DNA of 64,000 nucleotides, taken from contig JALAHT010000004.1 in the NCBI GenBank assembly GCA_025384855.1, forward strand, positions 251,846 to 315,845. Direction: 5' to 3'. Position numbers and translations under genes: made by a program. The notes below the pieces were generated by a model that saw only the letters and a program-made list of their open reading frames with translations, was not told the origin of the DNA and did no database searches. The number at the start of each line of letters is the position of its first letter. The stretch's first letter is position 1. Source of the DNA: Luteirhabdus salina. Its GTDB lineage: Bacteria; Bacteroidota; Bacteroidia; Flavobacteriales; Flavobacteriaceae. Positions 5,034 to 51,028 of the stretch are shown piece after piece.

Positions 5034-7247
5034 TTAAGCCGAGGGACTTAAGCTTGATGTAACCTTATCTGGGGTAACGGGTAGTTTTCTAAATCGAACT
5101 CCGATAGCATTATAAATCGCATTGGTAATGGCGGGAGCGGACCCAATTAATCCTACTTCCCCCAAGCCTTTAGCGCCCATCGGATTGATATTCGGATCGG
5201 GTTTGTCTATAAAGGATACTTCAATTAGGGGAACATCGGCATTCACCGCGACGTGGTAACCAGCAAAATCGTTGCCAAGCAGTCGACCTGAATTCATATC
5301 CACTTCCTGTTTTTCGGTCAAGGCCATTCCGACACCGCCGACGCCTGCTCCGATAATTTGGTTGGCAGCTGCTTGTGGATTTACAATGGTTCCAGCATCC
5401 ACTACAATAACCATTCGATCCATCCTCACTTGTCCGGTTAGTGCATGCACCTTTACTTTATAAAAATGCGCTGCGGAAGAGCAAAAGCCATATTTTTCGC
5501 GTTCGTCCCCAGCAGAAGAATATTCTTCAACCATGATGGTGTCAAGATTATTTTTGGTGAAGAGTGAAGCATAGGTAACTTTCTGATTGGGATTACCTTG
5601 CATTGAAATGTCATTTTCACCCAAAACTATCGATGCTGCTTTCCACTGTTGATCATTGGTTGAAGCATAGGTCGCTAATTTTTCCTTCAATGCAGTACTC
5701 GCTGCAGCAATGGCACCACTTAAGGACGACAGTCCCCAACTTCCACCTTGTGTCACCGCCTTAGGATGGATAGAATCTCCCAACTCAATATTAATTTTCT
5801 CACGTGGAATGCCTAAAAACTCATGCGCCATATTCACAATAGCTTCTCCCGTACCAGTTCCAATATCGGTCATGGCAGTGCGGATAACCAGATTGCCCTT
5901 TTTATCCATCTCAATGGAAGCGCCGGCATGTCTACGCATCGCATTCCATAAACCGACGGCCATTCCATAGCCCGTATACCAATTTCCCTCTTTTAGTTGT
6001 AAAGGTTTGGTGGGTCTATTTTGCCAGCCGATTGTTTCAGCACCCCGCTGTAGGCATTCATCCAAAAAGTGGGAAGACCACGGATTGCCGGTTTGCATTT
6101 CATAGGGAGCGATATTTTTCATTCGAATATCAACAGGATCAACATCCATTTTATAGCATAGTTCGTCAATGGCAGATTCTACTCCGAAAGTTCCCGTAGA
6201 GTCGCCTGGGCCACGCATCCAAGTTGGAGATGATAGATGAAGTGGCACCGTTGCCGCATTGCGTTGAACGTTTTCGAAACCGTATACCTTATGTGCGATT
6301 GCGGTAATTCCTTCGGAAAAATGATGTTTCTGCGATTTGGTATGCTTCGACTGGTGAATCACCCCTAAAAGTTTACCATCAGTAGCGGCACCAATTTTAA
6401 CGCGTTGCCAAGATTCTGGCCGATAACCGACCATCGTAAACATCTGAGGCCGTGTTAAAACCACCTTCACTGGCCGATTGAGCTGTTTTGCGGCAAGACT
6501 GGCGGCTACGGTATTGAACCACATATTAAGTCCTGAACCGAAACCTCCGCCAACAAATTCGCTAGTCACTCGAATATTTTTCGGATCAAGATTAAAAAGG
6601 GCACCCAAGTTGTTTTGAACGGCATTTACCCCTTGCGATTTATCATACACGTGAAGGCTGTTCGCTGAATCCCATTGCGCGATAGTGGCGTGCATCTCCA
6701 TGGGGTTGTGAACCTCCATGGCAATCTCATACTCCTGGTCGACGATATGAGGGGCATTTTGCCAATTACTACTGCTGCCGCGATCATCCTTCATATCATT
6801 TAAATCGACCCTTTTTCGAACGTTGTCGAAATCGATATCCATGTCTTTGTTTTCCTCATACTGCGCTTTCACCAAAGAAGCGGCAAAGCTGGCATCCTCT
6901 AGGGTTTCAGCCACCACCAAAGCGATGGGCTGGTCGTTAAAATCGATTTCAGTGGTATGGAAAAAAGTGTGATGTACAGGAAAGTCTTTGCGCTTCTCAG
7001 CGTTTTCAAGGGCAGCGATACTCGGTTTGTTCCAATAGGAAAGAACATCGATGACACCTGGAATTTCCTTTGCGATGGAAGTGTCGATTCCTATTACTTT
7101 TCCATTGGTAATCGTGCTTCCTATCAACACCCCATGTGCTAATTTCGGGAGTTCGTACTCTGCAGAATATAACGCCTTGCCAGTAACCTTCGCTCTTCCT
7201 TCTACGCGGCCTTTACGATCTGATAGTATGTTGAAGGGTTTTACCAT
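5034..7247 (-). CDS. Molybdenum hydroxylase large (molybdopterin-binding) subunit, PaoC/XDH type
   Basis: The 737-residue catalytic subunit of a xanthine-oxidase-family enzyme. Members hydroxylate aldehydes or N-heterocycles at a molybdenum-MCD cofactor. The N-terminal VEGRAKVTGKALYSAEY segment, GGGFGSGLNMW near residue 235 and the C-terminal GAKGLGEVGLIGSAPAI are family signatures; the Glu in GLGEVG is the expected catalytic base. Size and three-gene layout match E. coli PaoABC rather than fused xanthine dehydrogenases. It has no signal of its own and would be carried out by the Tat signal on the iron-sulfur subunit. Its ATG overlaps the FAD gene by seven bases. The substrate cannot be read from the sequence. 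Confidence 0.9.
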   Translation of the reverse strand: MVKPFNILSDRKGRVEGRAKVTGKALYSAEYELPKLAHGVLIGSTITNGKVIGIDTSIAKEIPGVIDVLSYWNKPSIAALENAEKRKDFPVHHTFFHTTEIDFNDQPIALVVAETLEDASFAASLVKAQYEENKDMDIDFDNVRKRVDLNDMKDDRGSSSNWQNAPHIVDQEYEIAMEVHNPMEMHATIAQWDSANSLHVYDKSQGVNAVQNNLGALFNLDPKNIRVTSEFVGGGFGSGLNMWFNTVAASLAAKQLNRPVKVVLTRPQMFTMVGYRPESWQRVKIGAATDGKLLGVIHQSKHTKSQKHHFSEGITAIAHKVYGFENVQRNAATVPLHLSSPTWMRGPGDSTGTFGVESAIDELCYKMDVDPVDIRMKNIAPYEMQTGNPWSSHFLDECLQRGAETIGWQNRPTKPLQLKEGNWYTGYGMAVGLWNAMRRHAGASIEMDKKGNLVIRTAMTDIGTGTGEAIVNMAHEFLGIPREKINIELGDSIHPKAVTQGGSWGLSSLSGAIAAASTALKEKLATYASTNDQQWKAASIVLGENDISMQGNPNQKVTYASLFTKNNLDTIMVEEYSSAGDEREKYGFCSSAAHFYKVKVHALTGQVRMDRMVIVVDAGTIVNPQAAANQIIGAGVGGVGMALTEKQEVDMNSGRLLGNDFAGYHVAVNADVPLIEVSFIDKPDPNINPMGAKGLGEVGLIGSAPAITNAIYNAIGVRFRKLPVTPDKVTSSLSPSA

Positions 7248-8917: not shown

Positions 8918-11134
8918 TTAGTCACGATTTTTGTTACGATTATCGCGTCCGCGATTGTCGCGACCTTTGTTGTTGTCGCGTCTACCACCGCCACCGCTCT
9001 TACGGTCTTGGTAGCCTTCTGGTTTTGGAAGTAACGCTTTACGCGATACTTTTTCCTTACGAGTTCTAGAATCGATTCCGAAATACTTCACATCAATAAC
9101 ATCGCCCATGTTTACAACATCGGTTACATTATCGGTACGGTTCCAGTCCAATTCAGAAATATGCAGTAACACTTCATTTCCAGGAGCGTCAAGATATTCT
9201 ACCACAGCACCGAAATCAAGTATTTTGATAACCTTCACTTCGTATACGCTGCCAACTTCAGGCTTAAACGTAATCGCATCGATTTTCGCCAATACCTTAT
9301 CGATTCCCTCTTGGCTAATACCCAAGATTTCCACGATTCCAGTTTCGGTTTCTTCATCTTCGTTGATAACGATAGTTGTTTCCGTTTCTTTCTGAAGTTC
9401 TTGAATCACTTTTCCACCGGGTCCGATAAGCGCTCCAATATATTCACCTGGAATAGTAGTGGTAACGATTTTTGGTGCATGTGCCTTCACGTTTTCGCTT
9501 GGCGTCGCAATCGTATCGGTCAATTTCTTCAGGATATGAAGGCGACCTTCGCGTGCTTGTTTCAAGGCTTTCACCAAGATTTCGTAGCTCAGTCCCTTAA
9601 TCTTAATATCCATCTGGCAAGCGGTAATACCATCTTCAGTACCGGTTACCTTAAAGTCCATATCGCCTAAGTGATCTTCATCACCAAGGATGTCGCTCAA
9701 TACGGCATAATCCTTTCCGTCGGTAATCAATCCCATAGCAATTCCACTAACAGGTTTCTTCAACTGAATACCAGCATCCATCAAGGCCATGGTTCCGCTA
9801 CAAACGGTTGCCATAGATGAGGATCCGTTACTTTCCAATACTTCACTTACCACACGAACGGTATATGGACAGTCGTCAGGAATCATACCCTTTAACGCGC
9901 GTTGCGCCAAGTTTCCGTGTCCGATTTCACGACGGGAAGTTCCACGAATAGGTCGTGCTTCACCCGTAGAAAAAGGAGGGAAGTTATAGTGAAGGTAGAA
10001 TGTTTCTTCATCCTGAAGCGTCGGTAAATCGATTACGTTCGCTTCTCTTGAAGTACCTAAGGTTACAGTTGCCAATGCCTGTGTTTCACCACGGGTAAAT
10101 ACTGCTGAACCATGTGTGGAAGGTAGATAATTTACTTCACACCAAATATCACGTACTTCGTCGGTCTTACGACCGTCAAGACGAATACCATCTTTTAGTA
10201 CAACATCACGAACGGCTTCCTTATGAGCAGTTTTAAAATACTTGGAAATCAAATCGCCATTCTCGTCCAATTCCTCTTCAGAGAACATCGCTTTTACTTC
10301 GTCCTTTACCGCTGAAAATGCTTCGCTTCGTTCATGTTTGCCAGTTCCTTGCTTTGCAATATCGTAGCATTTTTGGTAAGCAGCTTCACGTACTTTTTGC
10401 TCTAGCGCTTCATCTTCACGCTCGCCTTCATACTCGCGGGTTTCCTTTTTGCCAACCGCTTCAGCCAAACGAATCTGTGCCTGACATTGCTTTTTGATGG
10501 CCTCATGTGCGAATTTGATAGCTTCTGCCATTTCCTCTTCGCTGATTTCCTTCATTTCACCTTCTACCATTGCAACGCTGTCTTCAGAAGCACCAACCAT
10601 CATATCGATATCGGCTTTTGCTAACTGCTCGCGGCTTGGGTTGATTACGAATTCACCATCCACACGCGCCACGCGTACTTCAGAAATTGGGTATTCGAAA
10701 GGAATATCACTTAATTGAATGGCTGCAGAAGCTGCCAATCCAGCAAGGGCATCGGGCATTACTTCTTCGTCGTGCGACATCAATTGAATCATCACCTGTG
10801 TTTCATTGTGATAATCTTTTGGGAATAGCGGACGCAATACACGGTCTACCAAACGCATGGTAAGGACTTCCTCTGTACTTGGACGCGCCTCACGTTTGAA
10901 GAATCCACCAGGATAACGTCCCGCGGCGGCAAATTTTTCACGATAGTCTACCGTAAGGGGTAGAAAATCTACAGGACTTGCATCCTTGTTCGATACAACG
11001 GTACAAAGCAACATGGCGTCGCCCATTTGTACCACGACAGAACCGTGGGCCTGTTTCGCTAATTTTCCGGTTTCGATAGAGATTTCCCTACCATCACCTA
11101 GGTCGATGACCTCTTTAAATGTTTTAGGTATCAT
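8918..11134 (-). CDS. pnp: Polyribonucleotide nucleotidyltransferase (PNPase)
   Basis: Phosphorolytic 3'-5' exoribonuclease of mRNA decay. The 738 residues hold two RNase PH domains (about 10-230 and 310-545), with the active-site signature [17 protein letters not shown] near 400, a KH domain carrying [16 protein letters not shown] near 570, and an S1 domain ([18 protein letters not shown]) near 640. The last 30 residues are a low-complexity tail of Gly, Arg, Asn and Asp with repeated RDNRG, beyond the usual S1 end. It follows rpsO as in many bacteria, but a strong terminator stands between them, so it probably also has its own promoter. Leader hairpins lie at 11155-11171 and 11260-11273. Confidence 0.96.
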
Positions 11135-25934: not shown

Positions 25935-26564
25935 ATGAAGCTTATCGAAACCTATTTTCCAGACCTTACAGCGGCCCAAAGAAATGATTTTCAAAAACTT
26001 GAAGGACTCTATCACGATTGGAATGAAAAGATAAATGTGGTGTCCCGAAAGGATATCGATGAACTCTATTTGCGACACGTATTACATTCACTCGGTATCG
26101 CAAAATTGCAGCGCTTCAATCCAGATTCGAAAATATTGGATGTGGGTACAGGAGGTGGATTTCCAGGTATTCCGTTGGCGATTCTCCATCCTGAAACGGA
26201 ATTTCATTTGGTGGATAGTATCGGAAAAAAGATAAAGGTGGTGGAAGAAGTTGTTGATGGGTTGGGATTGACAAATGTTACCGCCATCAACGACCGGGTT
26301 GAAAATGTGGACGGTCAATACGATTTTATCGTGAGTCGTGCGGTGGCACAAATGGAAACGTTTGTGCGTTGGGTGAAAGGTCGCATTAAGAAGAAAAGTG
26401 AACACGAACTTCGAAATGGGATTTTATATTTGAAGGGCGGCGATCTTACCGAAGAATTGGCAAAATATAAAGCTGCAAAGGTCTATCCGTTGACCGATTT
26501 TTTTGACGAGCCGTTTTTTGAAACCAAGAGCGTGGTGCATCTCCCCATGAAGTATAAAGGATAA
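25935..26564 (+). CDS. rsmG: 16S rRNA (guanine-527-N7)-methyltransferase
   Basis: Methylates G527 of 16S rRNA using SAM. The 209-residue protein has the family signatures: NVVSRKD near residue 35, HVLHSLGIAKL, SAM motif I (ILDVGTGGGFPGIPLAI) near 65, HLVDSIGKKI, and the later FIVSRAVAQM with RNA-site residues. Its stop overlaps the start of the DUF1853 gene by one base (TAATG), so the two are coupled. Confidence 0.95.
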   Translation: MKLIETYFPDLTAAQRNDFQKLEGLYHDWNEKINVVSRKDIDELYLRHVLHSLGIAKLQRFNPDSKILDVGTGGGFPGIPLAILHPETEFHLVDSIGKKIKVVEEVVDGLGLTNVTAINDRVENVDGQYDFIVSRAVAQMETFVRWVKGRIKKKSEHELRNGILYLKGGDLTEELAKYKAAKVYPLTDFFDEPFFETKSVVHLPMKYKG

Positions 26565-27385
26565 TGGAGAAGGGGGAAAGCACTTCTGAAGGCGATTGGA
26601 GGTATTTTCAACAAGGACCCGAATTGATGGTAGTCGATCTCGGTTTTTCCTTTGAAACGTTTTCCGTTCAGCAGTTGAAGGTCTCTGAACAATCGTTTCA
26701 GTTTCCATCACAATTGATGTTGGGCAAACAAGCGGAATACTGTTTCGAATATATGGTGAAACATTCGGAGCAATATGAAGTGTTGGCTGCTAATATTCAG
26801 ATTCAGGGGGAAGAACAGACGTTGGGTGAATTGGATTATCTATTGTTTGATACCAAAACCGATAAGAACCTTCATGTCGAATTGGCCTGCAAATTTTATT
26901 TGTATGATGAATCCTTGGGAGACGCCCCGGTTGAAAAATGGATTGGTCCGAACCGAAAGGACCGTTTGGTCGAAAAACTTCAAAAACTGAAGAACCATCA
27001 GTTCCCGTTACTGTATTCCGAAGCAACGGAATCCTTGCTTGAATCGTTGCAACTTCAACCTTCAACAATTGAACAGCAGTTATGCTTGAAGAGTTTTCTC
27101 TTTCTCCCAAAGGGAATGGAGAAAAGCGATTTACCTGAAGCGTTTTCGGATTGCATTATTGGTCGTCATATCAAGATAGACGATTTCACTCCAAAAAATT
27201 ATCTAGGTGCTTTTTATCTTCCCCAGAAAAAAGAATGGTTGTTATCTCCGGATAGTCACACGACTTGGATTTCTTTCGAGGAAGTCAAGCGGCAATTGGA
27301 TGAAAAACGATCACAAAAGCGTTCTGCCTTGGTATACCATAAAACCAACAAAGGGATTGAGTTGTTTTTCGTTCGGTGGTGGTAG
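26564..27385 (+). CDS. DUF1853-family protein (possible PD-(D/E)XK nuclease fold)
   Basis: A 273-residue cytoplasmic protein matching the DUF1853 pattern: FPSQLMLGKQAEYCFEYM, then LGELDYLLFD near residue 87, HVELACKFYL near 102, KWIGPNRKDRLVEKL and HQFPLL. The ELD plus E-x3-K arrangement suggests a PD-(D/E)XK-like core; this is inference and no activity is established. The start overlaps the rsmG stop by one base. The final codons (TGG TGG TAG) are already in phase with the seven-base repeat that fills the downstream gap. Confidence 0.8.
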   Translation: MEKGESTSEGDWRYFQQGPELMVVDLGFSFETFSVQQLKVSEQSFQFPSQLMLGKQAEYCFEYMVKHSEQYEVLAANIQIQGEEQTLGELDYLLFDTKTDKNLHVELACKFYLYDESLGDAPVEKWIGPNRKDRLVEKLQKLKNHQFPLLYSEATESLLESLQLQPSTIEQQLCLKSFLFLPKGMEKSDLPEAFSDCIIGRHIKIDDFTPKNYLGAFYLPQKKEWLLSPDSHTTWISFEEVKRQLDEKRSQKRSALVYHKTNKGIELFFVRWW

Positions 27386-27719
27386 GTGGTAGGGTGTAGG
27401 GTGTTGGGTGTTGGAAGTGGGGTGTTGAATCCTTTAGTCGATACTTCTGAAATCTAAAATCTAAAATCTCATATCTAATATCTTGGCTCTTGGTTCTAGT
27501 CTCTTGTCTTTGGTCTCTAGTCTTTTTCTTTTCTCGATATTCTTTGTTTCCTTGTGGTTTTGAAACTAGTCGCTCTGCTTCTTTTGCATCCCTGTTCCTT
27601 AAAACTCAAGACTCAAGACTCAAGACTCAAAACTCATCATTCTTCATTCCTAATTCTACATTCTAAATTCTACATTCTACATTCTAAATTCTGAATTCTA
27701 AATTCTGAATTCTGCATTT
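27378..27719. repeat. Degenerate heptanucleotide-phased repeat tract filling an intergenic gap
   Basis: The only gene-free stretch over 300 bases contains no plausible gene but a strong seven-base period. Block 1 (27378-27426) runs GGTGGTA twice, GGGTGTA, GGGTGTT twice, a degenerate unit, GGGTGTT. Block 2 (27443-27526) is twelve units with TCT (three times TTT) at positions 4-6, drifting from AAATCTA to GTCTCTA. A looser segment follows. Block 3 (27601-27719) is exactly seventeen units, AAGACTC-like then TACATTC/TAAATTC/TGAATTC-like. Block 1 starts inside the DUF1853 stop region and block 3 ends at the base before the peptidase stop codon. Boundaries and phase were counted by eye. Confidence 0.85.
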
Positions 27720-29153
27720 CTAATCCTTCACCTCCCCAACCTCACTCGTCGTGCCATAGGTGTCCATTAAATACACCAAACTGGCCATGGTGGCCGCGCC
27801 GAGTTCGAGCTCGCGTTTGTTTACCGCATCGAAGGTGTCGCTAGCGGCATGGTGGTGATCGAAATAGCGTTGGGAGTCGGGCCGCAGGCCAGCCAATACG
27901 ATTTTATCGTCCTTCAACGGACCAATATCGGCGCCACTTCCACCGCGTTCGAAATAGTGAATTAAATAAGGTTCAAACAAAGGCTTCCAACTTTCAACTT
28001 GTTCAAAATTTTCAGCATCGGTATCGAAGGAAAAGCCTCTTGGCGTAAATCCTCCGGCATCGCTTTCTAAGGCGAAAACATGTTGTTCGTTCTTCAGCTT
28101 GGCTTCGGCAGCATATTTTCTGCCGCCACGCAAACCATTCTCCTCATTCATAAATAACACCACTCGAATGCTATGCTTAGGTTTATAATTCATCTCCTTA
28201 AAGATTCGTAACACTTCCATACTTTGAACACAGCCAGCACCATCATCGTGCGAGCCATCGCCCAAGTCCCAAGAATCCAAATGTCCCCCTACAATCATAT
28301 AACGATTAGGATAGGTAGAACCGGTAATTTCACCAATTACGTTATACGACTGAACATCGTCATAGGTTTTACAACGTTGCTTAAAATAGAATTTCAAATC
28401 GGGTTTTAAGCTTAACGCACTGCTTAGATAGTCGGCATCCTTAGTGCTAATGGCACAGGCTGGAATCCGTTGGTCGGGAGGCGTTTCGCCATAACTCATG
28501 GAACCCGTATGTGGAAGGTCGTCATTGCTTAAGGTCATGGACCGAACTACAATTCCTACTGCACCATATTTTGCCGCTTCCATAGCACCTGCGTAGCGCT
28601 GATCTACACAGCCGCCATAGGCCTCGAAGGTATTAATGAGGTCGGCCTGCATCGGACGGTTATAAAAAACGATCTTTCCTTCAATTTGGTCTTTGCCGTA
28701 TCGTGCGAGATCATCCAGTCCTTGTACTTCAATAACTTCGGCTTTTAGTCCGAGTGCTGGCGTTGGAACGGAACCTCCCAAGGCACAGATATTCGCCTGG
28801 GTGGTGATGCCTGGAGAGGTTTCAATGTAAGCCTGTTCCTGCGGTCCGCGTGTCCATTTTGGCACCATCACAGGCTGAAGCCAAACCTTATCCAAGCCGA
28901 GTTTCTTCAATTCTGCTTCGGTATATTCTACGGCACGTTGGGCATTGAGCGAACCTGACAATCGGCCCCCGATTTCGTTGGAAAGATAATCGAGCCAATC
29001 ATAGGCTTTACCATTCAACAGCGCCATATCGTACATATTGCGAAGCATGGTAGAGTCTTTCTCCCTAGTTTGCGAAATGGCAGTATTTCCAACTAATAGA
29101 AGTGTAAGAAAGGTGAGTAAAAAAGGTTGGGGGATTCGAGCAGTATTTTTCAT
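27720..29153 (-). CDS. M28-family zinc peptidase with PA domain (exported)
   Basis: An exported di-zinc aminopeptidase or carboxypeptidase of the M28 family. I start it at 29153 (MKNTARIPQPFLLTF), which gives 477 residues and a signal peptide ending NTAISQ; the upstream ATG at 29189 overlaps the PPK2 gene and adds 12 non-signal residues. A protease-associated insert spans about 120-250. Zinc ligands are in order: GGHLDSWD near 308, DDGAGC, NEENGLRGG, LESDAGGF and HHHAASDTFD near 444. The last base of the coding strand abuts the heptad repeat. It lies 28 bases downstream of PPK2. Confidence 0.9.
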   Translation of the reverse strand: MKNTARIPQPFLLTFLTLLLVGNTAISQTREKDSTMLRNMYDMALLNGKAYDWLDYLSNEIGGRLSGSLNAQRAVEYTEAELKKLGLDKVWLQPVMVPKWTRGPQEQAYIETSPGITTQANICALGGSVPTPALGLKAEVIEVQGLDDLARYGKDQIEGKIVFYNRPMQADLINTFEAYGGCVDQRYAGAMEAAKYGAVGIVVRSMTLSNDDLPHTGSMSYGETPPDQRIPACAISTKDADYLSSALSLKPDLKFYFKQRCKTYDDVQSYNVIGEITGSTYPNRYMIVGGHLDSWDLGDGSHDDGAGCVQSMEVLRIFKEMNYKPKHSIRVVLFMNEENGLRGGRKYAAEAKLKNEQHVFALESDAGGFTPRGFSFDTDAENFEQVESWKPLFEPYLIHYFERGGSGADIGPLKDDKIVLAGLRPDSQRYFDHHHAASDTFDAVNKRELELGAATMASLVYLMDTYGTTSEVGEVKD

Positions 29154-29181
29154 GCAAAATTTTATGTAAAGACGATTAAAA

Positions 29182-30060
29182 TTATTCATTGTTTAAGCGA
29201 TCCTTATAATCGTCGATTTGTGCTTTTATTTCAGGATCCAGTTCTGGCGTTTTGATATCGTCATATTGCTGAAGGGTTTCTAACAAAATCTTTGCCACAA
29301 GATACCGAGCGGTTGCTTTATCGTCGGCAGGGATGTTGAACCAGGGTGCGTGTGGTTTTGAAGTGCGGGTAATGGCATCTTCATAGCAATCCATATAGTC
29401 GTCCCACAGATCACGTTCATCCAAATCGGCCGGCGAGAACTTCCAGTGTTTGTTGGGCTTGTTCAACCTGCGTAGCAATCGGTATTTCTGTCGTTCTTTC
29501 GAAATATTCAAAAAGAATTTGAAAATGATGGTGCCATTCTGGGAAATGATACGTTCAAAATCGTTGATCTGTTCAAAGCGCTGGTCCCAAAACGTTTCAT
29601 TTATATCGTCTAAGCTGTTCACTTTTGGAATATTTTCACCCAAAATATACTCGGGATGAACGCGGGTAATCAAGACATTTTCATAATGTGTTCGGTTAAA
29701 GACCCCAAACTTTCCGCGTTCTGGAAGCTTGCAGTAGTGGCGCCATAAATAGTCGTGACGCTTTTCCAAGGCGGTAGGTGTTTTAAAACTGTGGACGACC
29801 ACACCTCGGGCATTGAAATCTTTAAACACTTCACGGATTAGGCTATCCTTTCCAGCAGTGTCCATACCCTGTAGACAGACCAAAACGCCGTATTTTCCAT
29901 GGGCATAAAGGACATCCTGAAGTTCGCCAAGCTCCTCGCGGGTTTTCTCCAATTCTTTTTCAATTTTCTTTTCCGAGGCATCCAAATCGAAGGAGGAAGG
30001 TAAATCCTCTCGACGGTGATGGGCCGAAACTTTAAAATCGTTGGGATCTATTTTCTTCAT
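29182..30060 (-). CDS. PPK2-family polyphosphate kinase
   Basis: A cytoplasmic enzyme moving phosphate between polyphosphate and nucleotides. The single-domain 292-residue protein has Walker A (LQGMDTAGKDS near residue 63), a lid region (HYCKLPERGKFGVFNRTHYENVLI near 108-131) containing the Walker B-like FNRTHYE, and the family segment FFLNISKERQ. Which direction it favours and whether it uses ADP, AMP or GDP cannot be decided by eye. It is cotranscribed with the M28 peptidase. A TATCTTTA box stands only five bases before the ATG, so either the mRNA is leaderless or the box has another role. Confidence 0.88.
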   Translation of the reverse strand: MKKIDPNDFKVSAHHRREDLPSSFDLDASEKKIEKELEKTREELGELQDVLYAHGKYGVLVCLQGMDTAGKDSLIREVFKDFNARGVVVHSFKTPTALEKRHDYLWRHYCKLPERGKFGVFNRTHYENVLITRVHPEYILGENIPKVNSLDDINETFWDQRFEQINDFERIISQNGTIIFKFFLNISKERQKYRLLRRLNKPNKHWKFSPADLDERDLWDDYMDCYEDAITRTSKPHAPWFNIPADDKATARYLVAKILLETLQQYDDIKTPELDPEIKAQIDDYKDRLNNE

Positions 30061-49609: not shown

Positions 49610-50257
49610 ATGGGCCTTTTATCTAAAAAAGACAGCAAACTTATCATGGATCCCTTGGCGGATAATAACCCGATTACCATTCAGGTATTGGGAATCTGTT
49701 CTGCCTTGGCGATTACCGCACAATTGAAGCCCTCTATTGTAATGGCCATCTCGGTGATGTTCGTTATGGGGGTTGGAAATATTGTGATTTCCTTGATGCG
49801 GAATATCATTCCATCGAAAATACGAATCATCGTTCAGCTAATCGTAGTGGCAACACTCGTGATTATTGTCGACCAGGTTTTGAAGGCTTTTGCCTACGAA
49901 CTGAGTAAGGAACTCTCGGTTTTTATCGGTCTTATTATTACGAACTGTATCATCATGGGACGTTTTGAGGCCTTCGCACTTGGAAATGGCGTGTGGCGTT
50001 CGTTCCTGGATGGAATTGGTAACGCAGCGGGGTATGGAGTCATCTTGATTATCGTAGGATTCTTTCGGGAATTGCTTGGATCTGGAACTTTATTCGGTTT
50101 TCCAGTGCTCGGAAGCCCTGTAGATAAGACTGGACTCTATGCTATCGGATACGAAAACAACGGATTTATGGTATTGCCTCCTATGGCCTTGATTGTAGTA
50201 GGAATCATTATCTGGGTACAGCGTAGTCGTAATAAAGACCTTATAGAAGAAAATTAA
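49610..50257 (+). CDS. nqrD: Na+-translocating NADH:quinone reductase subunit D
   Basis: A 215-residue six-span membrane subunit. Cys30 (in VLGICSALAIT) and the cysteine in ITNCIIMGRFEAFA near 112 correspond to the NqrD cysteines that, with NqrE, hold an iron-sulfur centre in the membrane. GAGFFRELLGSG-like VGFFRELLGSGTLFG near 150 is also characteristic. Five bases after nqrC; a short heptad repeat fills the gap to nqrE. Confidence 0.95.
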   Translation: MGLLSKKDSKLIMDPLADNNPITIQVLGICSALAITAQLKPSIVMAISVMFVMGVGNIVISLMRNIIPSKIRIIVQLIVVATLVIIVDQVLKAFAYELSKELSVFIGLIITNCIIMGRFEAFALGNGVWRSFLDGIGNAAGYGVILIIVGFFRELLGSGTLFGFPVLGSPVDKTGLYAIGYENNGFMVLPPMALIVVGIIIWVQRSRNKDLIEEN

Positions 50258-50292
50258 TAAATTCTGAATTCTGATTGCTGAATTCATAATTA
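50258..50292 (+). repeat. Short heptad repeat between nqrD and nqrE
   Basis: Directly after the nqrD stop come TAAATTC, TGAATTC, TGATTGC, TGAATTC and ATAATTA in strict seven-base phase. Two of the unit types are identical to units of the large tract at 27601-27719. The other nqr gaps are only one to five bases, so this 42-base gap looks like an insertion of repeat units. Confidence 0.7.
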
Positions 50293-50299
50293 ACAACAT

Positions 50300-51028
50300 A
50301 TGGAACATTTAGAGTTATTTTTTAAATCGGTTTTTGTGGACAATATGGTGTTCGCATATTTCCTTGGTATGTGTTCGTACCTTGCGGTTTCCAAAAAGGT
50401 GAGTACCGCTGTAGGATTGGGAGCTGCCGTAATCTTCGTATTAACGGTTACCGTTCCGCTAAACTGGTTATTAGACCAATATATCTTGCAAGAAGGAGCA
50501 TTGGCTTGGTTAGGCCCAGAATATGCCGACTACGACCTTAGCTTCCTTTCTTTTATTCTTTTCATCGCAACAATTGCTACCATGGTACAGTTAGTAGAGA
50601 TTGTGGTTGAAAAGTTTTCGCCTTCCCTATATAACTCATTAGGTATTTTCCTTCCATTGATAGCCGTGAACTGTGCGATTTTAGGAGGATCCCTTTTTAT
50701 GCAGTCGCGGGATATCGCAAGTTTCGACCTTGCGCTGAACTACGGATTTAGCTCTGGAATCGGTTGGTTCTTGGCTATCTTGGCTATTGCTGCCATCCGT
50801 GAAAAAATTCGTTACTCGAATGTGCCTGCTCCATTGAGAGGACTGGGAATCACGTTTATCATCACAGGCCTGATGGCCATCGGATTTATGAGTTTCGGAG
50901 GAATGTTGACCGGTGGTGGTGAAGAAACTACTTCACTGGAAGGAAGTGGAAATAATGTCGGAATGCAAGTAGAAAGCAATAACGAATCAACAGAAACTGT
51001 AGAGGTTTCAACACTAATATCAGAATAG
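50300..51028 (+). CDS. nqrE: Na+-translocating NADH:quinone reductase subunit E, with C-terminal tail
   Basis: A six-span membrane subunit homologous to NqrD in inverted topology. Cys25 ([13 protein letters not shown]) and the cysteine in [16 protein letters not shown] near 117 are the expected metal ligands. The core ends at [13 protein letters not shown] near 205, where NqrE proteins normally stop (about 200 residues). Here about 35 further residues rich in Ser, Thr, Glu, Gly and Asn follow, giving 242. Separated from nqrF by one base. Confidence 0.94.

Follow-up and report, generated by a model that had tools for sequence, protein, structure and literature searches.

Degenerate heptanucleotide tract between convergent genes of Luteirhabdus salina as a likely copy of a dispersed intergenic repeat family

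The gap between a DUF1853 gene and an M28 peptidase gene of Luteirhabdus salina is filled by a tract made mostly of drifting seven-base units. We consider it likely that this is a heptanucleotide satellite in degenerate form, generated by slippage or unequal exchange and belonging to a family of intergenic tracts dispersed in Luteirhabdus. It lies in a window of 64,000 nucleotides, the whole stretch of DNA analysed here (contig JALAHT010000004.1, positions 251,846 to 315,845), to which all coordinates given without a locus name refer.

Position and make-up of the tract

The tract (27378-27719, 342 bases) occupies the space between two convergent genes. Upstream, an open reading frame of 273 amino acids on the plus strand (26564-27385) encodes a DUF1853 protein (PF08907, E 2.2e-46) with 87% identity to its counterpart in a genome of the same genus. 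Downstream, an open reading frame of 489 amino acids on the minus strand (27720-29189) encodes an M28 peptidase (PF04389, Peptidase_M28, E 1.8e-26) whose best relative, with 99% identity, is found in Luteirhabdus pelagi A3-108. The two Pfam matches bear out the flanking genes named in a preliminary description of this DNA. The stop codon of the DUF1853 gene (27383-27385) lies inside the first heptamer block, which overlaps the final codons of the gene.

The autocorrelation proposed in that description confirms a period of seven. Lag-7 identity across the tract is 0.651, compared to a mean of 0.285 (sd 0.025) and a maximum of 0.361 in 500 dinucleotide shuffles; lags 14, 21 and 28 are raised too, and no further lag between 2 and 28 is. 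TRF reports period-7 sub-blocks with matches of 71-100%, for a whole-tract lag-7 identity of 0.65. By both TRF and the lag-7 scan, head-to-tail seven-base units are well above chance, as in a heptanucleotide tandem repeat.

On the plus strand, the units form three blocks joined by two linkers. Block 1 (27378-27419; units GGTGGTA, GGGTGTA and GGGTGTT; lag-7 identity 0.83, also found by TRF) is followed by linker 1 (27420-27445; 0.42). Block 2 (27446-27523; 0.76) consists of nnnTCTn units passing from AAATCTA to TTGGCTC to AGTCTCT, and is separated by linker 2 (27524-27600; 0.36, not heptameric in L. salina) from block 3 (27601-27719; 0.83), where AAGACTC-type units give way to nnnATTC-type units. 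Block 3 holds exactly 17 phased units in 119 bases, as had been described. The three heptamer blocks of the earlier account stand as well, but its wording that the tract is built almost entirely of sevens is too strong, because the two linkers, which make up 103 of the 342 bases, show no clear heptameric pattern. The unit TAACTGA is absent from the units listed for these blocks. Elsewhere in the window, a minor AATTCTG array of the block 3 unit family (50260-50285, plus strand; TRF period 7, 3.7 copies) lies in a region (50252-50328) with a lag-7 identity of 0.529.

Dispersed tracts, shared linkers and an associated palindrome

Tracts of this kind are spread through the Luteirhabdus genomes. 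In 464 kb of L. salina, namely the window and 20 stretches of which six were picked with earlier hits in view so that counts are biased upward, we found 21 lag-7 segments with a score of at least 18, compared to none in shuffled sequence (one shuffle per source). Lag 8 gave 5 segments, and the remaining lags from 2 to 24, multiples of 7 and 8 apart, gave 0-1. At a score of 15 the lag-7 segments merge into 14 tracts. When the window and the six picked stretches are excluded, the density is 14.3 tracts per Mb (4 in the 280 kb of the 14 remaining stretches), and that of the sister species, L. pelagi A3-108 (genome G001), is 15.0 tracts per Mb (6 in 400 kb sampled). Ten other genera of the family gave 2.5 tracts per Mb (2 in 800 kb), none at score 18; this figure leaves out G100, G121, G143, G131 and G160 (18 stretches), which were sampled because of earlier hits and hold 2, 1, 1, 2 and 0 period-7 segments at score 15, respectively. 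In 79 other family loci around the M28 gene (about 712 kb), 2 period-7 segments were found at the same score, a number not above that of several other periods. These tracts, abundant in Luteirhabdus and scarce in ten other sampled genera of its family, lend themselves to studying why bacteria favour repeat units of seven bases.

The preliminary description had also called for a search for the tract heptamers in flavobacterial genomes. With three candidates scored per genome, at least 55 of 199 genomes of the family, including two from Luteirhabdus, contain matches to the window tract. A period-7 segment is present in 25 of the 28 such matching loci inspected, and a few of these are long drifting tracts. 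In G131, another flavobacterial genus, the ATAACTG (x6) and CTGATAA arrays of L320 (3394-3497 and 4166-4227) correspond to the TAACTGA unit of MacGregor 2015.

The arrays are mainly intergenic in both Luteirhabdus samples, as expected for heptanucleotide tandem repeats: with genes predicted by a simple custom script, 2814 of 2880 array bases in L. salina and 523 of 572 in the sister lie outside predicted genes. This fits the earlier statement that the tract is not a decayed gene. The sister array L224 (AATTCTG-type) lies entirely within a predicted gene.

Among the 14 L. salina tracts, 9 lie between co-directional genes (the L132 and L135 gaps included), 3 between convergent genes (the window tract, L137 and L140 14670) and 2 between divergent genes, which roughly follows the intergenic base shares (35038 co-directional, 4975 convergent, 8080 divergent). 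The L132 array (10968-11043) largely fills the space that separates the ATP synthase genes beta and epsilon, and the L135 array (5377-5447) is found between the gene for tRNA (guanine-1) methyltransferase and that for ribosomal protein L19. A bidirectional transcription terminator, Rho or intrinsic, would suit the window tract in so far as both flanking genes end there and its plus strand is mostly rich in T and C. However, the mostly non-convergent placing indicates that, as a class, these tracts do not act as terminators, and no terminator-like hairpin (GC hairpin and T run) was found inside the window tract, the only such site in 27300-27800 being outside it at 27783-27795. We therefore regard this function as very improbable.

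Parts of the window tract recur at other loci. The 3' part of linker 1 (from 27433 on) with the start of block 2, TTTAGTCGATAnTTCTnAAATCTA, is found again in L. salina at L127 12615, and in the sister at L041, the orthologue of the window tract (5 mismatches), and at the overlapping loci L197 and L212. The block 2 stretch ATATCTAATATCTTGGCTCTTG also occurs at L127 (twice), L140 14771, L201 and L041 with 2-4 mismatches, and the linker 2 stretch CTTTTTTCTTTTCTCTATATTCTTTG has related copies at L127, L197, L201, L214 and L041 with up to 5 mismatches. With mismatches allowed, the L127 gap of L. salina combines TTTAGTCGATAnTTCTnAAATCTA, AAATCTAATATCTTGGCTCTTG and a CTTTTTTCTTTTCTCTATATTCTTTG-like stretch, the last two twice, AAATCTAATATCTTGGCTCTTG stands alone at L140 14771, and the sister holds this set, whole or partial, at L041, L197, L201 and L214. 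A search with the L127 copy returned 8 matches in L. salina, itself included, and 5 in the sister. The shared linker patterns are absent from shuffles of 41 of the sources; a further AAATCTAATATCTTGGCTCTTG match at L140 4181, inside a gene, looks like chance. Among 299 genomes of the family, 19 (two from Luteirhabdus) contain the pattern AATATCTTGNNTCTTG; no period-7 DNA at score 12 was found within 150 bases of any of its 18 matches outside the genus.

Since its linkers are common to other loci, the window tract can be regarded as a copy of an element dispersed in Luteirhabdus. As far as these sequence comparisons go, it belongs to a dispersed element whose blocks appear to have grown and shrunk, and the shared linkers would have their source in copying between loci.

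A GC-rich palindrome of about 53 bases, with the pattern GTNCGTTCGGGCGGG, is associated with the tracts and has 2 copies in L. salina and 10 in the sister. In the two Luteirhabdus genomes, no exact-pattern copy is farther than 91 bases from a scored period-7 segment (12 of 12), and for 8 copies the distance is at most 4 bases. Two looser copies are also placed within tracts (L220, L194), and a shorter copy in the sister lies outside any tract (L225). The element has the form CCCGCCCG...CGGGCGGG (L205-L216 in G000 and G001; L239-L262 in other genera). At L124/L204, the TGTTGGG array is uninterrupted in L. salina and is split in the sister by the palindrome and a second small hairpin, and thus the palindrome seems to have entered a pre-existing array. 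Small hairpins of the CCCTCCTTCGGCGGGCtAGG and CCTGCCTAGCCGGCAGGCAGG types also break heptamer arrays of the sister (L193, L202, L204, L212).

In other genera, where 24 of 33 further palindrome matches were inspected, 4 copies lie within 100 bases of a period-7 segment and 3 more within 200; 3 copies are in eight-base arrays, judged by eye, one of which is among those within 200 bases, and the rest are elsewhere. Eight-base arrays of ATCACCGC and TGTACCTG that contain the palindrome were seen by eye at L249, L253 and L261 of G160. This genome may use a step of eight; two 20-kb G160 stretches taken at set positions contain no eight-base arrays. A Y1 transposase was considered as the mobiliser of the palindrome and set aside: one Y1 gene (PF01797) per Luteirhabdus genome is above the cut-off (L237, L238), each with its own kind of flanking palindrome, and, the genes being at different places with other palindromes beside them, no link with the tract palindrome was seen. 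The association between palindrome and tract in Luteirhabdus is a testable lead on how small mobile palindromes choose their targets.

Taken together, linkers and palindrome could also belong to a composite intergenic element, in which ordered heptamer and octamer blocks and conserved linkers are copied between gaps and form a preferred landing site for a palindromic mobile element. We put this forward tentatively and think it rather unlikely; if it is true, an active system in Luteirhabdus would be spreading and rebuilding DNA with a seven-base step in the gaps of its genome.

Change of the tracts between two species

A comparison of the locus between close strains had been suggested. The sister species has an orthologous tract (L041), where the flanking genes are the same and the order of blocks is kept while the units are changed. 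Repeats are prone to misassembly, but a separate Luteirhabdus genome with the same tract and different units leaves a practically negligible chance that the tract is an assembly artefact, one of the two outcomes that would have refuted the preliminary description. At the block 1 site, the sister has TAGnnnn units and is 28 bases longer. Part of its linker 2 is a period-8 array (GCTTCTTT), which indicates that the step is not strictly seven. Period-8 blocks (CAAAGnnn / AGnnnCAA), with about three bases free to vary and five constant, adjoin heptamer blocks at L041 5549-5601, L122 7406-7504, L135 5326-5379 and other places.

We compared 13 of the 14 L. salina tracts with the sister at a score threshold of 12, leaving out tract L122 14974-15164. 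Period-7 DNA is present at the matching site for 12 of the 13, and the period-7 scan found no array at the remaining site, L195. At L122/L198, the sister has two GTGAACA-type units and one GAATTGA-type unit fewer, and the junction units GTGATCC, GTGAACG-GAATCAA and GCAATA are conserved in both species; this is a whole-unit difference in copy number between relatives, as is typical of tandem repeats. Birth or large growth of an array is seen at L196, where the sister has 14 CTACTCA/CTGCTCA units and L. salina has CTACTCATTACTCA, and replacement is seen at L135/L202, with AGAATTC and TTGTCTC units in L. salina and CAGTGAC x5 in the sister. TAACTGC units are present at L194 of the sister. In the two congeners, orthologous arrays have reached different points in their growth and replacement.

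The earlier suggestion of copying in seven-base steps is supported by these comparisons: the sister differs by whole units with unchanged junctions, and some arrays are large in just one of the two species. Across 11 tracts aligned between the two species, 24 of the 81 gaps of at least 5 bases are multiples of 7. Part of this excess is to be expected, since gaps of 7 are favoured whenever two such periodic sequences are aligned, and it carries little weight by itself; gaps of 6 are as frequent as gaps of 7 (11 each), and the L122 alignment is poorly anchored at its left end.

As the cause of these changes we infer slippage or unequal exchange. When strands or copies misalign during replication or recombination, runs of one to several seven-base, and sometimes eight-base, units would be gained or lost; point mutations would then alter the units, and altered units could be re-amplified into a new block. 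Every duplication would inherit the period, so that it could last while the sequence drifts. Tracts would be tolerated and persist between genes, as changes of seven bases would break reading frames. The slippage model does not account for the copying of linkers between loci, and it leaves the recurrence of ATTCnnn, AAATCTA and ACTCAAG units in other genera unaccounted for.

A neutral simulation with unit duplication, deletion and point mutation only gave a mean lag-7 identity of 0.68, compared to the observed 0.65. In 6 of 48 simulated arrays, the first and last units have at least five differences; the model thus gives some drift, less than that between block 1 and block 3. As mutation alone would seldom drift as far as from GGGTGTT to nnnATTC, it fits better to regard these two blocks as separate, with linkers joining them.

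Unit changes are uneven over the seven columns (z 6.6 in L. salina and 8.2 in the sister; 6.9 and 11.6 for distinct units), where the sister set counts one block twice owing to the overlap of L213 and L214. Simulated column-concentration ratios average 1.16-1.23 (1.04-1.33 in single sets), while the real ratios are 1.25 in L. salina and 1.31 in the sister. Simulated blocks are longer than real ones (10.6-14.7 versus 7.5-7.6 units) and hold more distinct units, and the model can be said to match the real column pattern loosely. In our reading, columns may become concentrated under neutrality because related units share mutations.

The preliminary description had proposed, as an alternative, that the spacing itself is selected, for instance if a single-strand- or DNA-binding protein of the cold-shock or S1 type bound one per heptamer at a regulatory or architectural site. 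Column-concentrated changes around cores of about four bases that look constant would agree with this, as would the period-7 DNA kept at nearly all sister sites, and an excerpt of PMC4679880 raises CspB binding with one protein per heptamer. Such selection is not needed, given that the neutral duplication model nearly reproduces the column concentration and some blocks have a period of 8, yet the sister column z of 11.8 exceeds that of every simulated set (highest 11.0). The many unrelated cores, and unit families swapped at the same site between species, also speak against it, and counts conditioned on the core are no test. The column pattern is suggestive of selection on a core, and selected spacing as an explanation of the tracts appears doubtful.

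Templated synthesis, by a telomerase-like or other enzyme adding heptamers, would likewise produce drifting units in steps of seven bases. A single template is hard to reconcile with several unrelated unit families and with eight-base blocks, and we give this explanation hardly any credence.

Finally, we assessed whether the tract may be transcribed into a structured RNA with a heptamer-built hairpin, like that of the cyanobacterial tRNA-Leu intron P6b. Compared to its shuffles, the window tract does fold better (z -2.9 and -2.5, and -2.7/-2.4 when folded beside the other tracts), and a few other tracts fold well (L233, z -4.4/-3.3; L132, -3.5/-3.8). On the other hand, the sister orthologue has z values of +0.6 and +0.9, so that folding is not conserved, and 25 tract stretches (both strands) have a mean z of -0.74 versus -1.25 for 25 of 44 ordinary intergenic gaps (one strand). 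An Rfam search gave no match reaching the gathering score and three weak ones below it. A structured RNA is therefore extremely improbable, and long gaps of such make-up should not be taken for structured RNAs or decayed genes. A promoter scan of the window tract found 6 promoter-like sites versus 1.0 in shuffles; as 5 of the 6 fall on (nearly) successive TAGAAT units, on the minus strand, we take these sites to be a by-product of the repeat.

Relation to known heptamer repeats

In what follows, A. sublithincola stands for a species of Aequorivita. The slippage-derived satellite that we favour is of a kind already known, since intergenic heptamer repeats have been published, also from Flavobacteriaceae, and the earlier statement that no described element has this form is too strong in view of the excerpts considered here (PMC4679880, PMC4692102). 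In its excerpts, MacGregor 2015 (PMC4679880) describes direct repeats of the heptamer TAACTGA in intergenic DNA of Beggiatoaceae, cyanobacteria and five Bacteroidetes, and other heptamers sharing those gaps in two Flavobacteriaceae, Gramella forsetii and A. sublithincola. As described there, these repeats resemble the Luteirhabdus tracts in being intergenic, with a period of 7 and other heptamer repeats in the same gaps; we also count as a likeness that close relatives have shorter gaps without obvious repeats. The same excerpts deal with one unit, which in the Beggiatoaceae genome stands mostly just before start codons, whereas Luteirhabdus has many drifting unit families per tract and linkers common to loci.

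Excerpts of PMC4692102 describe heptamer repeats, likewise in intergenic DNA, from Xanthomonas (GGGAATC) and Nostoc (GGGGA(C/T)T), and discuss polymerase slippage. According to this source, the Xanthomonas and Nostoc units form G-quadruplexes, while those of Luteirhabdus belong to many families and for the most part are not rich in G. Long simple sequence repeats of 5-11 nt, in which heptamers are commonest in most genomes (Mrazek 2007, as cited in excerpts of PMC4679880 and PMC4692102), share with our tracts the preference for seven and a sporadic distribution among genomes, and their slippage has been proposed to follow a seven-base polymerase contact (Mrazek 2007, as cited in PMC4679880). 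In these citations, they are defined as runs longer than expected, as opposed to the Luteirhabdus tract, which is strongly degenerate overall. The repeats of the cyanobacterial tRNA-Leu intron P6b are degenerate sevens with copy-number differences as well (PMC3488679, in excerpt), but they pair into a hairpin in a transcribed intron, and no conserved folding was found in the Luteirhabdus tracts.

In the literature considered, we found no description of multi-family, linker-bearing heptamer tracts in Luteirhabdus. What is new compared to the known systems are the drifting multi-family blocks, the linkers common to several loci and the palindrome, all 12 exact copies of which in the two Luteirhabdus genomes lie beside such tracts.
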